NCBI RefSeq assembly: GCF_001592965.1
Contig: NZ_LRPC01000028.1
Coordinates: 1,116,001 to 1,180,000, forward strand
From: Roseivirga spongicola
Lineage (GTDB): Bacteria > Bacteroidota > Bacteroidia > Cytophagales > Cyclobacteriaceae
Length of the DNA: 64,000 nucleotides
Direction: 5' to 3'
Part shown: one piece after another, positions 44,896 to 60,466 of the stretch
How positions within the stretch are numbered: position 1 is the stretch's first letter
Layout: each line of letters opens with the position of its first letter
Program-made: the position numbers and the translations under genes
The notes under the pieces: generated by a model
The model's database searches: none
Seen by the model: the letters and a program-made list of their open reading frames with translations, nothing else
Told to the model about the DNA's origin: nothing

Positions 44896-45387
<492 letters not shown>

Positions 45388-45403
45388 TTATGTCGTTAAT
45401 TTT

Positions 45404-45538
45404 TTCACGCAAAGGGCGCTAAGGCTTTTACACAAAGCCCGCAAAGAATTCCCCGTGTTTTTAAGTACCTACTCTTTGCGTTCTCTGCAGTCATCCTTCT
45501 TTGAGATCTTTGCGTGAAGTTACCCCTGTGGTCTCTAA
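45404..45538. repeat. cassette left flank, copy A
   Basis: Contains CGCAAAG at 45408 and 45440 and CTTTGCG at 45474 and 45508, so it can fold on itself. It shares an exact 17-bp stretch, CCTACTCTTTGCGTTCT, and CTGTGGTCTCT with copy B (45585-45683), in the same order and orientation. Confidence 0.65.
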
Positions 45539-45547
45539 GTGAAAACC

Positions 45548-45574
45548 TTATAGATTATTTACTACTCGTTTTTT
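45548..45574 (-). pseudogene. remnant of a second GxxExxY gene (last codons)
   Basis: Read on the minus strand this stretch gives KKRVVNNL and a TAA stop. The intact neighbour ends HRVVNNL and TAA. It is followed, as the intact gene is, by CTGTGGTCTCT and CTTTGCG repeats. It is best explained as the 3' end left by a lost or overwritten second copy. Confidence 0.6.
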
Positions 45575-45584
45575 TCAAGCTGAG

Positions 45585-45683
45585 AGCGCAAAGTTAGTCG
45601 CAAAGCTCGCAAACGGTTTTCTTTATTTCAATGTTGCCTACTCTTTGCGTTCTTACCGTTAATTCTTCTCTGTGGTCTCTGAG
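45585..45683. repeat. cassette left flank, copy B
   Basis: CGCAAAG-type repeats at 45587 and 45600, CTTTGCG near 45644, and the blocks CCTACTCTTTGCGTTCT and CTGTGGTCTCT shared with copy A. It directly follows the stop of the intact GxxExxY gene. Confidence 0.6.
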
Positions 45684-45691
45684 AGAATCAT

Positions 45692-46069
45692 TTATAAATT
45701 ATTCACCACTCGGTGAATATCGTTTTTTAGGATCTTTGAGTTGAAATTGATTAGTAGCCCAAGTTTCTTATTCGATAGTTTTAAATAAGTCAATAGCTGA
45801 GCATAGTGTACAGGTGCTAATGTTTCAACTGATTTAACTTCAATGATTACCTTATTTTCAACAAGAAGGTCAACCCGATAGCCTACTTCCATCTTTACCT
45901 CTTTATAAAGAAACGGTAAAGGAAGTTGTTGTTTCACATCAAGACCAGATTCTCTCAGATCATAAGCCAACGCATTTTCATAAGCAGATTCTAATAAACC
46001 TGGACCTACATTTCTATGCAAATCTATGGCAATACCAATGATTTTATATGAAATTTCGTTCTCGGTCAT
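45692..46069 (-). CDS. GxxExxY protein, PD-(D/E)XK-like fold
   Basis: A 125-residue protein of the GxxExxY family, named for the GPGLLESAYENAL motif near residue 23. EVGYRVDLLVENKVIIEVKSVE has the Asp, Glu-x-Lys order of PD-(D/E)XK nucleases (PDDEXK_3 family), so nuclease activity is possible. The family occurs widely, often as one gene with repetitive flanks. It is in the same orientation as the polysaccharide genes but unrelated to sugar metabolism and surrounded by repeats. Biological function is not established. Confidence 0.87.
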   Translation of the reverse strand: MTENEISYKIIGIAIDLHRNVGPGLLESAYENALAYDLRESGLDVKQQLPLPFLYKEVKMEVGYRVDLLVENKVIIEVKSVETLAPVHYAQLLTYLKLSNKKLGLLINFNSKILKNDIHRVVNNL

Positions 46070-46074
46070 GTGCT

Positions 46075-46207
46075 TATTTCACACAAAGAACGCGAAGGGT
46101 GCTACGGATTCTTTGTGTAATATCTATCCGTACTCCCTCTCTGCGATCTCTGCGTTCATTTCCCTTTGCGGTCTCTGCGTGAACCCTCTTTGCGAACTCC
46201 GCGTGAA
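46075..46207. repeat. cassette right flank
   Basis: CACACAAAG near the left end followed by TTCTTTGTG, then repeated TCTCTGCG, CCTTTGCGG and CTCTTTGCGA units up to GCGTGAA at 46201-46207. Same vocabulary as the left flank, as expected if both belong to one element. Confidence 0.6.
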
Positions 46208-46211
46208 CATT

Positions 46212-47252
46212 TTAAGAAATCATTTCTTTATATATCACCTCATCGGCAGATACATTCTGATTAAGTTTCTTGCCTATCAACTGATCTTTTTGTGCCCACT
46301 GAAATCCATCTCCTGGACTGAGCAGATGCACATCGGCTTCAGAGATTACTTCGCCTTGTCGCATATCTCTTTTGGTTGCAATACTGCGCTCTAACTTCAC
46401 CTTGGCCGCAGAAACTGCTTCACTACGCTCCTTCTTCATCTCACCAAAAGCCATTTCAAGATTACGGATATCACGCACCATTCTACGCATTCCATCGGGA
46501 GCTAAAGAGCCTGCTTGATCGGTTCCTTTCATGGTTCTATCGAGCGTAATATGTTTTTCGATTGTCGTTGCCCCCATGGCCACAGCAGCCAAAGGAATAG
46601 ATATACCAATACTATGGTCAGAATAGCCTACTTCAAAATCGCTGTACTTTTGTTTTAAATAGTGAATACTATTCAGGTTAATATTCTTGTACTCACTCGG
46701 ATACTGAGAAAGGCAGTGTAAGATGGACACTGAATTATGATGCTTCGTGATTACCTCTAAAGCATCATCTATTTCTTGTTCTCCTCCCATCCCAGTAGAA
46801 ATCACCATGGGTATTTTAGTTTCAGCCATAGCATTCAAAAGAGGTAAATTGGTAAGGTCTCTACTGGCTACTTTGAGTCTATCAGGTGTAAATAGTTTGA
46901 GCATACTTAAGCAACCGATAGCGCAAAGTGTCTCGACAAAGTCCAAGCCCTTTTCTTTGGCATATTGATACAATTCAAAATGCTGCTCATCATCCAGTTC
47001 TAGTTTTGCTCTATGTTCACCGTAGGTTTTACCAAAACTATGTGGACTGTCATATGGCCTGTTCATAGCTGAAGCAGAGAGCTCTTCTGCTAAATCACGC
47101 TTGGTAAGCTTCACAGCATCCCATGGTTTTAACTCTAAGCCAAAAAGCTCATCTTTAACCGGTTGTGCGGCTTTATCGATTAAGAGTTTAGCTAAATCTA
47201 CTGAACCATTGTGATTCTGACCTATTTCACCAATTAAGTAGGTATGTGGCAT
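46212..47252 (-). CDS. neuB: N-acetylneuraminate synthase family protein
   Basis: A 346-residue NeuB-type enzyme. IGEIGQNHNGSVDLAKLLI starts the TIM barrel, MVISTGMGGEQEIDDAL and SDFEVGYSDHSIGISIPLAAVAMGATTIEKHITLD are the conserved PEP and metal-site blocks, and the C-terminus (ISEADVHLLSPGDGFQ...LIGKKLNQNV) is the SAF antifreeze-like domain. It condenses phosphoenolpyruvate with an aminosugar to a nonulosonic acid such as sialic, legionaminic or pseudaminic acid. The SpsF-like cytidylyltransferase is upstream. No NeuC-type epimerase is in the window, so the exact sugar is open. Confidence 0.9.
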   Translation of the reverse strand: MPHTYLIGEIGQNHNGSVDLAKLLIDKAAQPVKDELFGLELKPWDAVKLTKRDLAEELSASAMNRPYDSPHSFGKTYGEHRAKLELDDEQHFELYQYAKEKGLDFVETLCAIGCLSMLKLFTPDRLKVASRDLTNLPLLNAMAETKIPMVISTGMGGEQEIDDALEVITKHHNSVSILHCLSQYPSEYKNINLNSIHYLKQKYSDFEVGYSDHSIGISIPLAAVAMGATTIEKHITLDRTMKGTDQAGSLAPDGMRRMVRDIRNLEMAFGEMKKERSEAVSAAKVKLERSIATKRDMRQGEVISEADVHLLSPGDGFQWAQKDQLIGKKLNQNVSADEVIYKEMIS

Positions 47253-59939: not shown

Positions 59940-60466
59940 ATCAATTCCTTAATAATATCTTCATATCGGTTTTGAGCCTCCAAGACCAAATCGGCCAATT
60001 CGCGAAGCACCCCTTCTCCACCTTTGGATTTCAAAACTAAATCAACGTGTTCCTTCACTTTGTAGTGCCCATCGCTTGGTGTACAAGACAAACCACAACG
60101 AACCAACACAGGCAAATCATTGATATCATCGCCCACATAAGCAATTTGCTCATCGGTAAGCTGCCACTTCTCCTTTAGCTTTTGGTAGGTTTCGAGCTTA
60201 TTCTTGATACCATGGTAGTGTTTATCGATCTTTAGTTCTTCACAACGGTTTCTCACTACTAACGAATCTCTACCTGTAATAACTGCTGTGTAAATCTCAG
60301 CTCGCTTCAGGTATTTGATTATTTGCCCGTCCTTTACATTGAAGCGCTTAAATTCCATTCCTGCATTGTCGTAGACAATACCTCCATCGGTCAACACACC
60401 ATCAACATCGAATATGATAGCCTTAATTTTTCTGGCTTGCTCTATAGTTTTTTCTGAATAGCTCAT
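59936..60466 (-). CDS. kdsC: Kdo-8-phosphate phosphatase
   Basis: An HAD C0-type phosphatase of 176 residues from the ATG at 60466 (60484 is also in frame). IKAIIFDVDGVLTDGGIVYDNAGMEFKRF has the two catalytic Asp residues, YTAVITGRDSLVVRNRCEEL motif II and IAYVGDDINDLPVL the metal Asp pair. The overlap with kdsA makes the Kdo role nearly certain. It is the first gene of the polysaccharide operon and has its own promoter. Confidence 0.93.
   Translation of the reverse strand: MSYSEKTIEQARKIKAIIFDVDGVLTDGGIVYDNAGMEFKRFNVKDGQIIKYLKRAEIYTAVITGRDSLVVRNRCEELKIDKHYHGIKNKLETYQKLKEKWQLTDEQIAYVGDDINDLPVLVRCGLSCTPSDGHYKVKEHVDLVLKSKGGEGVLRELADLVLEAQNRYEDIIKELI

Follow-up and report, generated by a model that had tools for sequence, protein, structure and literature searches.

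A GxxExxY gene between mirrored word arrays in the neuB-kdsC gap of Roseivirga spongicola looks like a one-gene insertion element

A useful point of comparison for the locus described here is the intervening sequence (IVS) of 23S rRNA, an inserted element with hairpin arms that hosts one small gene. REPIN/RAYT systems and MITEs are built on short inverted repeats and have gene-less copies alongside gene-bearing ones; the gene of REPIN/RAYT systems encodes a Y1 (TnpA-REP) transposase. One paper calls the 23S rRNA IVS selfish and states that RNase III cuts it out (PMC4990558), and another describes direct repeats of a single heptamer word, TAACTGA, in Beggiatoaceae, cyanobacteria and Bacteroidetes (PMC4679880).

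Here we describe a locus of Roseivirga spongicola that shares some of these features. The window, a stretch of 64,000 nucleotides of contig NZ_LRPC01000028.1, contains a gene of the known GxxExxY family between neuB and a KdsC-like gene, and this gene is flanked by mirrored arrays of short words (Table 1). The surrounding element fits no mobile-element family whose defining features could be tested, and the cassette looks like an undescribed one-gene insertion element. That a GxxExxY gene between mirrored arrays of ~9-bp words forms an inserted unit is, in our estimation, highly probable. The most likely reading of the whole, to which we give slightly better than an even chance, is a chromosomal one-gene array cassette that bears a nuclease, has no transposase, and whose nuclease recognises its own arrays.

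Table 1. Features of the neuB-kdsC gap and its neighbours (positions in the window).
Feature	Position	Strand	Basis
KdsC-like HAD phosphatase gene, downstream neighbour of the cassette	44896..45384	-	ORF; Pfam Hydrolase_3/Hydrolase; "KdsC-like" is the earlier note's name
Outer (downstream) mirrored array, flank of vanished copy A, TTCACGCAAAGGGCGCTAAGG ... CTTTGAGATCTTTGCGTGAA	45404..45518	.	inverted repeat 20 nt at 80%; DNA fold z -4.1
Scar: KKRVVNNL*, last eight codons and stop of a second GxxExxY gene	45548..45574	-	translation; flank duplication 71 nt at 73% identity
Downstream array of the intact gene, CGCAAAG/CTTTGCG words, CTCTGTGGTCTCT adjoining the stop	45574..45690	.	fold no better than shuffles, z -0.84
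GxxExxY / PDDEXK_3 gene, 125 aa, D67/E77/K79	45692..46069	-	PF13366 E 5.5e-41; TIGR04256 E 8.9e-44; alignment of 13; model pLDDT 95
Upstream array of the intact gene: CACAAAG..CGCGAAG hairpin followed by the words CTCTGCG, CTCTGCG, CTTTGCG, CTCTGCG, CTTTGCG, CTCCGCG	46076..46207	.	DNA fold z -3.0
NeuB gene, upstream neighbour of the cassette	46212..47252	-	ORF; NeuB E 1.5e-67

Like the 23S rRNA IVS, the cassette is an inserted element with one small gene. Unlike it, this gene is of the PD-(D/E)XK type with no PF05635, the site lies between neuB and the KdsC-like gene rather than in a 23S rRNA helix, and the arms are iterated words whose mismatches carry no signature of RNA pairing. With REPIN/RAYT and MITEs it shares short inverted repeats and the coexistence of gene-less and gene-bearing copies, but its single gene is a PF13366 PD-(D/E)XK gene, not a Y1 transposase, and the strict arrays defined below number 0-11 per genome across 39 genomes. 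The terminal inverted repeats (28 nt at 71% in the end-to-end inverted match) recall insertion sequences and MITEs, as do the mirrored arms found with protein subfamily A (those of subfamily B are not chiefly mirrored). Unlike in an insertion sequence, there is no transposase gene: besides GxxExxY no ORF of transposase size was found in the gap, the largest other one reaching in being 122 aa on the opposite strand. Homing endonuclease genes are likewise lone nuclease genes, filling the same gap in some sisters and leaving it empty in others, but here the site is intergenic and the arrays are part of the cassette; lineages that share a filled gap are compatible with homing-style copying into an empty allele, and also with vertical descent. 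The flanks of four-helix-bundle genes (PF05635, the 23S IVS protein family), to which we return below, resemble the TAACTGA repeats in being 7-bp iterated words in gaps. Those repeats, by contrast, are described as direct and of one word, and the main text describing them is without the terms four helix, S23 and STRR (PMC4679880). The literature that we searched, with most subscription journals and preprints outside it, yielded no description of an array cassette around GxxExxY and no match to any of six 15-16-base motif strings or to PDDEXK_3.

All three genes are on the minus strand, and the gap between the outer two is 827 bp (45385-46211). An earlier note on this DNA had described the GxxExxY gene as embedded in CGCAAAG/CTTTGCG repeats that extend from about 45404 to about 46207. 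We find the same extent, and 9 of the window's 15 such heptamers fall within the gap. The left flank is indeed present twice, as that note had claimed: the exact 17-bp block CCTACTCTTTGCGTTCT occurs at 45468 and 45637, and CTGTGGTCTCT at 45526 and 45670, neither recurring a third time on that strand of the window, and the two copies of this duplicated downstream flank lie 144 nt apart. Translation of 45574-45548 on the reverse strand also confirms that copy A ends in KKRVVNNL and a stop, as the intact protein ends in HRVVNNL and a stop, and is therefore the tail of a second GxxExxY gene. The inverted 7-mer TTCACGC/GCGTGAA which the two ends had been said to share is real (45404 and 46201), but alone it marks nothing, because GCGTGAA occurs six times and TTCACGC twice in the window. 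As single-stranded DNA, the outer and upstream arrays (45404-45518 and 46076-46207) fold better than all 200 of their shuffles, whereas the middle block between gene and scar does not. Elsewhere in the window there is a second KdsC-like match, at 59957-60424 (G000 C28:1175957-1176424; G000 is the window's genome), with 39% identity to the first.

The protein itself is a predicted nuclease. PF13366 is its only Pfam match at E up to 0.001, with 140 bits against a curated cut-off of 22, and TIGR04256 reaches 148.6 bits against a cut-off of 35. Its D67, E77 and K79 are invariant across 13 aligned GxxExxY sequences. The predicted structure matches lambda exonuclease, Cas4 SSO0001 and LHK-Exo best, and tRNA splicing endonucleases less well. 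These matches are moderate: relative to the query, TM falls from about 0.5 to 0.33, the first three have an rmsd of 4.3-15.7 with 15-22% identity, and E is at most 0.001 in just one hit out of 396. A search of PDB chains by sequence found no relatives up to E 1. The Pfam match, the conserved D/E/K residues and the moderate lambda-exonuclease/Cas4-like fold match thus support the PD-(D/E)XK core that had been attributed to the family. GxxExxY matches are absent from 50,697 phage records and present in 8 of 72,556 plasmid records, all typed non-mobilizable. One published passage mentions a GxxExxY domain, reported by a pipeline, beside a reverse transcriptase and labelled CRISPR-like.

Do the same words recur around other GxxExxY genes? 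A broad subfamily A set was made from the best 80 of 577 matches in named genomes, which are hence chosen for likeness to the query and include many metagenome bins; 77 of these 80 loci have full 120-bp flanks and were used. The titles of these best 80 of 577 span Bacteroidota, Alphaproteobacteria, Chloroflexota, Acidobacteria, Planctomycetota, Neomarinimicrobiota, Ignavibacteria, a cyanobacterium and a Methanothrix. Across the 77 loci (from the best 80 of 577), CRCRRAG occurs 141 times in upstream flanks, where shuffles give 4.1, and its mirror CTYYGYG 150 times in downstream flanks, where they give 3.3, an enrichment of 34-45 fold; the opposite orientation is seen 41 times upstream and 57 times downstream. 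The upstream word is found at 55 of these 77 loci and the downstream mirror at 61, with a commonest spacing of 9 bp and most spacings at 8-11 bp, so that the flank repeats of different GxxExxY loci are related. In the 48 loci of this set (best 80 of 577) with units on both sides, the three variable purines agree from arm to arm (r 0.87, 0.78 and 0.71), and still do so with host GC removed (0.87, 0.72 and 0.66, where the best of 2000 permutations gave 0.50-0.52).

The word depends on the protein. The CRCRRAG unit accompanies 82 of 94 subfamily A genes (including the broad set, best 80 of 577), 1 of 14 subfamily B genes and neither of two others. Flanks of subfamily B carry GATT-type words instead, with a TGTCTGA-type end, by pattern, in 4 of 14. 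This sampling is uneven, with B loci solely from near relatives and A loci mostly from far ones, and four loci were left out of the counts (L068 for GxxExxY; L014, L128 and L278 for the four-helix-bundle genes). The reading in which the nuclease acts on its own flanks gains from this result, because the words differ by protein subfamily. Another GxxExxY gene of the window's genome, of subfamily B, has 9-bp GATT-type arrays (L006, G000 C29:186000-189391); its contig ends within another GxxExxY fragment, and by eye a gene like that for a type I restriction specificity subunit lies between.

The spacing of the words was analysed by autocorrelation of 60-bp flanks, with a z score per lag. GxxExxY loci of the relatives peak at lag 9 (z 4.6 upstream, 6.0 downstream). 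In the broad set (best 80 of 577) lag 9 reaches 7.7 downstream, and the upstream peak is at lag 10 (3.4; lag 9 gives 1.7). Subfamily B peaks at lag 9 (2.4 and 4.5; 14 loci), and subfamily A of the relatives has lag 9 upstream (2.9) and lags 10 and 9 downstream (4.1 and 3.6; 14 loci). The four-helix-bundle genes are also common, being found in 34 of 39 genomes (the window's own included) and in 116 of 148 genomes of the phylum, and where they are intergenic (L007-L014, L106-L134, L265-L294) they are flanked by mirrored arrays of 7-bp words that vary by gap. Their lag 7 peak is strong among the relatives (8.0 and 9.8, with harmonics at 14 and 21) and across the phylum (5.1 and 9.6; 29 of 30 loci). 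The relative set includes nine loci of one same gap, and lag 7 persists when one of the nine is kept (6.2 upstream, 8.7 downstream), just as it does in the phylum set without similar neighbours (5.5 and 8.0; 19 of 29). For single 75-bp flanks, the best lag is 9 in 49/158 and 22/59 GxxExxY flanks (the broad ones from the best 80 of 577) against 28/200 control flanks, and 7 in 37/70 and 36/58 four-helix-bundle flanks against 36/200. Neither GIY-YIG genes of the same genomes (23 of 25 loci) nor 100 ordinary neighbour ORFs have such a period, with 7 and 9 bp looked for in the GIY-YIG genes.

Mirroring is a less distinctive feature. It was scored between the upstream flank of a locus and its own reversed downstream flank, against mismatched pairings. 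The z scores are 10.2 (relatives) and 17.6 (broad, best 80 of 577) for GxxExxY and 10.7 and 11.0 for the four-helix-bundle genes, and among all pairings of a flank the one with its own partner scores highest in 12/29 and 20/77 cases (the 77 from the best 80 of 577) and in 16/34 and 15/29, respectively. GIY-YIG flanks are mirrored as well, with z 8.8; of 30 such loci five were set aside for their long open frames (from about 600 aa upwards), and 23 of the remaining 25 were used. GIY-YIG genes are thus no negative control for mirroring. The 100 ordinary neighbour ORFs also score above mismatched pairs (10.3 against 9.2, z 5.7), so mirroring alone is not special to GxxExxY. What marks a family is its word and its period, and mirroring is common to several kinds of small intergenic gene. 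Many of the small GIY-YIG genes (L336-L361) are flanked by mirrored sequence, e.g. GTCATTCCCGC...GCGGGAATGAC, or are placed, by eye, among fragments that resemble tRNA. Four-helix-bundle flanks are mirrored only, with inverted medians of 14.0 and 15.0 and a direct median of 9.0, the level of mismatched pairs, and the broad A set (best 80 of 577) is mainly mirrored, at 18.0 inverted against 10.0 direct and with the inverted match better in 48 of 77. Subfamily B has a median of 15.0 direct against 12.5 inverted, with inverted better in 4 of 14. Since direct matches are as frequent as mirrored ones in subfamily B, the selfish-nuclease reading loses some of its weight.

One alternative works at the level of RNA: the arms would pair in the operon transcript, RNase III would trim the gene-bearing loop, and the mRNAs of the neighbours would be released, so that the insertion is tolerated. 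The 23S rRNA IVS, with its S23 protein gene, is removed like this, and RNase III excision is stated for that of Coxiella (PMC4990558). The four-helix-bundle genes also fit: intergenic copies are flanked by mirrored arms, and both neighbours run in the same direction as the gene in 28/30 and 22/26 cases (p 0.0004 and 0.016 against neighbour triples; loci with two neighbours within 600 bp counted). The same count for the broad GxxExxY set (best 80 of 577) gives 53/66, p 0.007 against 41/69 for the triples, which speaks for the cassette reading; the GxxExxY relatives give 17/26, which is not significant (p 0.39), and GIY-YIG genes 6/17. The mismatches between arms speak against the RNA-level alternative. 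Mismatches that sense RNA tolerates (G-U) and those that it does not number 109 against 119, 44 against 50 and 27 against 46, with no preference for G-U, and G-U and A-C cells are depleted about equally in the broad GxxExxY set, best 80 of 577 (12.0 and 11.2 against 31.0 and 30.3 when permuted). RNA-tolerated mismatches are not favoured, so the arms look alike as DNA. Furthermore, Rfam has no match in 45100-46500 up to E 1. The RNA-structure reading is therefore unsupported by these mismatch counts and pair types, and we consider it improbable.

The history of the neuB-kdsC gap was read for KdsC matches of at least 74% identity, which are the window's own and those of six sisters (L076-L082). 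The gap is empty in five of the six (G002, G003, G005, G013 and G015), where the stop of neuB overlaps the start of kdsC or stands one base away. The remaining sister, G016, hosts a GxxExxY gene with internal stops and has AACTTATG in common with the window's genome at the right junction. KdsC of the window's genome is 88% identical to that of G003, whose gap is empty, and 76% identical to that of G016, so there may have been an exchange of the locus as such. The GxxExxY copies from the two filled neuB gaps do not group together in the protein tree. Filled and empty gaps, here and at the parE-parC site below, are too diverged for a target-site duplication to be read, and neither movement nor an excision product was seen. 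The empty sister gaps, together with the recurring flank words, bear out the earlier suggestion of a cassette, so that both refuting conditions set in the earlier note were resolved in favour of that suggestion, and we infer that the cassette has moved.

A second site, the parE-parC gap, has held several occupants. Among 19 genomes (18 sisters and the window's own, states read by eye) it is short and empty in seven (G001, G002, G003, G005, G009, G013 and G017). A subfamily A gene fills it in three (G000, G012 and, broken, G004), a subfamily B gene in five (G006, G007, G008, G014 and G015), and scars are left in four, A-like in G010, G016 and the very decayed G018, with a B-like array only in G011. 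These scars, of array and gene debris or of array alone, resemble the scar of a second copy which had been reported in the window, and broken copies and scars are present in several gaps. In the FtsZ tree G004 stands beside G006 and G014, yet G004 holds A where the other two hold B. The B copies of this gap form one clade in the protein tree (0.959), whose branching agrees with FtsZ although a single node is weak (0.388). A further clade (0.934) joins both intact A copies; much of the pattern may thus reflect vertical descent and loss. Besides repeated fresh insertion, the gap may owe its states to vertical inheritance followed by loss or to movement from one equivalent gap to another. The four-helix-bundle genes have comparable sites, again by eye and counting the window's genome: between ftsA and ftsZ 8 of 19 genomes have the gene, 8 have array-like remnants and 3 neither, and between sufB and sufC 6 of 15 have the gene, one a scar and 8 neither.

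Some of the arrays lack a gene altogether. Across 39 genomes the strict pattern AACCRCRRAGNNCRCRRAG has 57 matches and its reversed form 2, and by coordinates 4 of the 57 adjoin a GxxExxY match. The window's own genome has two mirrored gene-less arrays (L043 and L045) and two half arrays (L044 and L046), so that the CGCAAAG family does occur elsewhere in this genome, where the earlier note had proposed to look. Another genome (G007 C95:7900-9500, L317) has five consecutive array units in a row every 170-175 bp. The arrays could accordingly be the mobile unit, MITE- or REP-like and spread by another enzyme, with the GxxExxY gene a passenger or past captor. The selfish-nuclease reading likewise loses weight because 53 of the 57 strict arrays in the relatives have no adjoining GxxExxY match. 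That said, a neutral passenger would need no tie between word and protein subfamily, and most of 20 array stretches fetched from relatives are half arrays by eye, as expected from decay. We regard arrays spread by another enzyme as quite improbable, somewhat more so than the RNA-level alternative. The strict pattern matches neither of the two subfamily A genes of the window's genome, and G014 has 11 strict arrays while its three GxxExxY matches are all of subfamily B. L043:1110-1182 and L045:1051-1127 have the reversed order, with CTTTGCG outside and GGTT...AACC central, as if the right end of one element had been fused to the left end of another. The contig of the five-unit array is without a GxxExxY match. 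Half arrays of G004, G006 and G014 (L321, L322, L331, L332 and L335) lie, by eye, beside another dispersed repeat, CGTCACTGCGA... CAGTCTC.

Are these genes useful to their hosts? A resident gene with a host function in DNA repair or defence, immobile now and with the arrays as operator or processing sites, is a further alternative. The parE-parC GxxExxY pair has a dN/dS of 0.02 (1 of 10 pairs usable), a sign of strong purifying selection which suggests host-useful maintenance, and because this sole usable orthologue pair is so constrained the selfish-nuclease reading again loses weight. Four-helix-bundle genes give 0.05-0.14 (6 of 28 pairs usable), and one of them is kept in nine genomes, arrays included, at a gap between thiolase and acyl-CoA dehydrogenase genes (names by eye, as for the other gaps) whose neighbours are 87-99% identical to those of L007. 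For eight of these nine genomes a simple estimator finds synonymous sites saturated in 22 of 28 pairs; the heptamer words are still there despite this, so something maintains the arms of four-helix-bundle genes. Against a resident host gene stand the patchy presence of GxxExxY (22 of 39 genomes, the window's own included) and its broken copies and scars in several gaps, and we rate it the least probable of the alternatives.

We therefore keep the nuclease-bearing array cassette as the preferred reading, and propose a mechanism for it. The cassette would have entered the neuB-kdsC operon gap in the sense direction, next to what is left of an earlier copy, and the arrays would be recognition sites of the encoded GxxExxY nuclease. 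Cutting would take place at the arrays, most likely at hairpins or cruciforms that the arms form in single-stranded DNA, and repair of the cuts could copy, move or delete the cassette and keep both arms alike. The sense orientation may be best explained by a need for read-through transcription. That the encoded nuclease acts on the arrays is the tentative part of this scheme, and we place it somewhat short of an even chance. A wider and more speculative idea unites GxxExxY genes with four-helix-bundle genes in a single undescribed class of elements that lack a transposase. Each protein family would dictate a period, 9 bp with the nuclease and 7 bp with the helix bundle, the word would drift by locus and hairpin-templated copying would keep the arms alike, with elements sense-oriented in operon gaps and decaying to gene-less arrays. 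Such a joint class is less likely because subfamily B flanks are not mainly mirrored, and we think it rather unlikely.

If gene-plus-array elements of this kind are real, the odd repeats scattered in bacterial gaps gain one explanation, and the idea of the selfish 23S rRNA intervening sequence extends into ordinary operons. Furthermore, the link between protein family and word period would make the binding of each protein to its own word and spacing directly testable.
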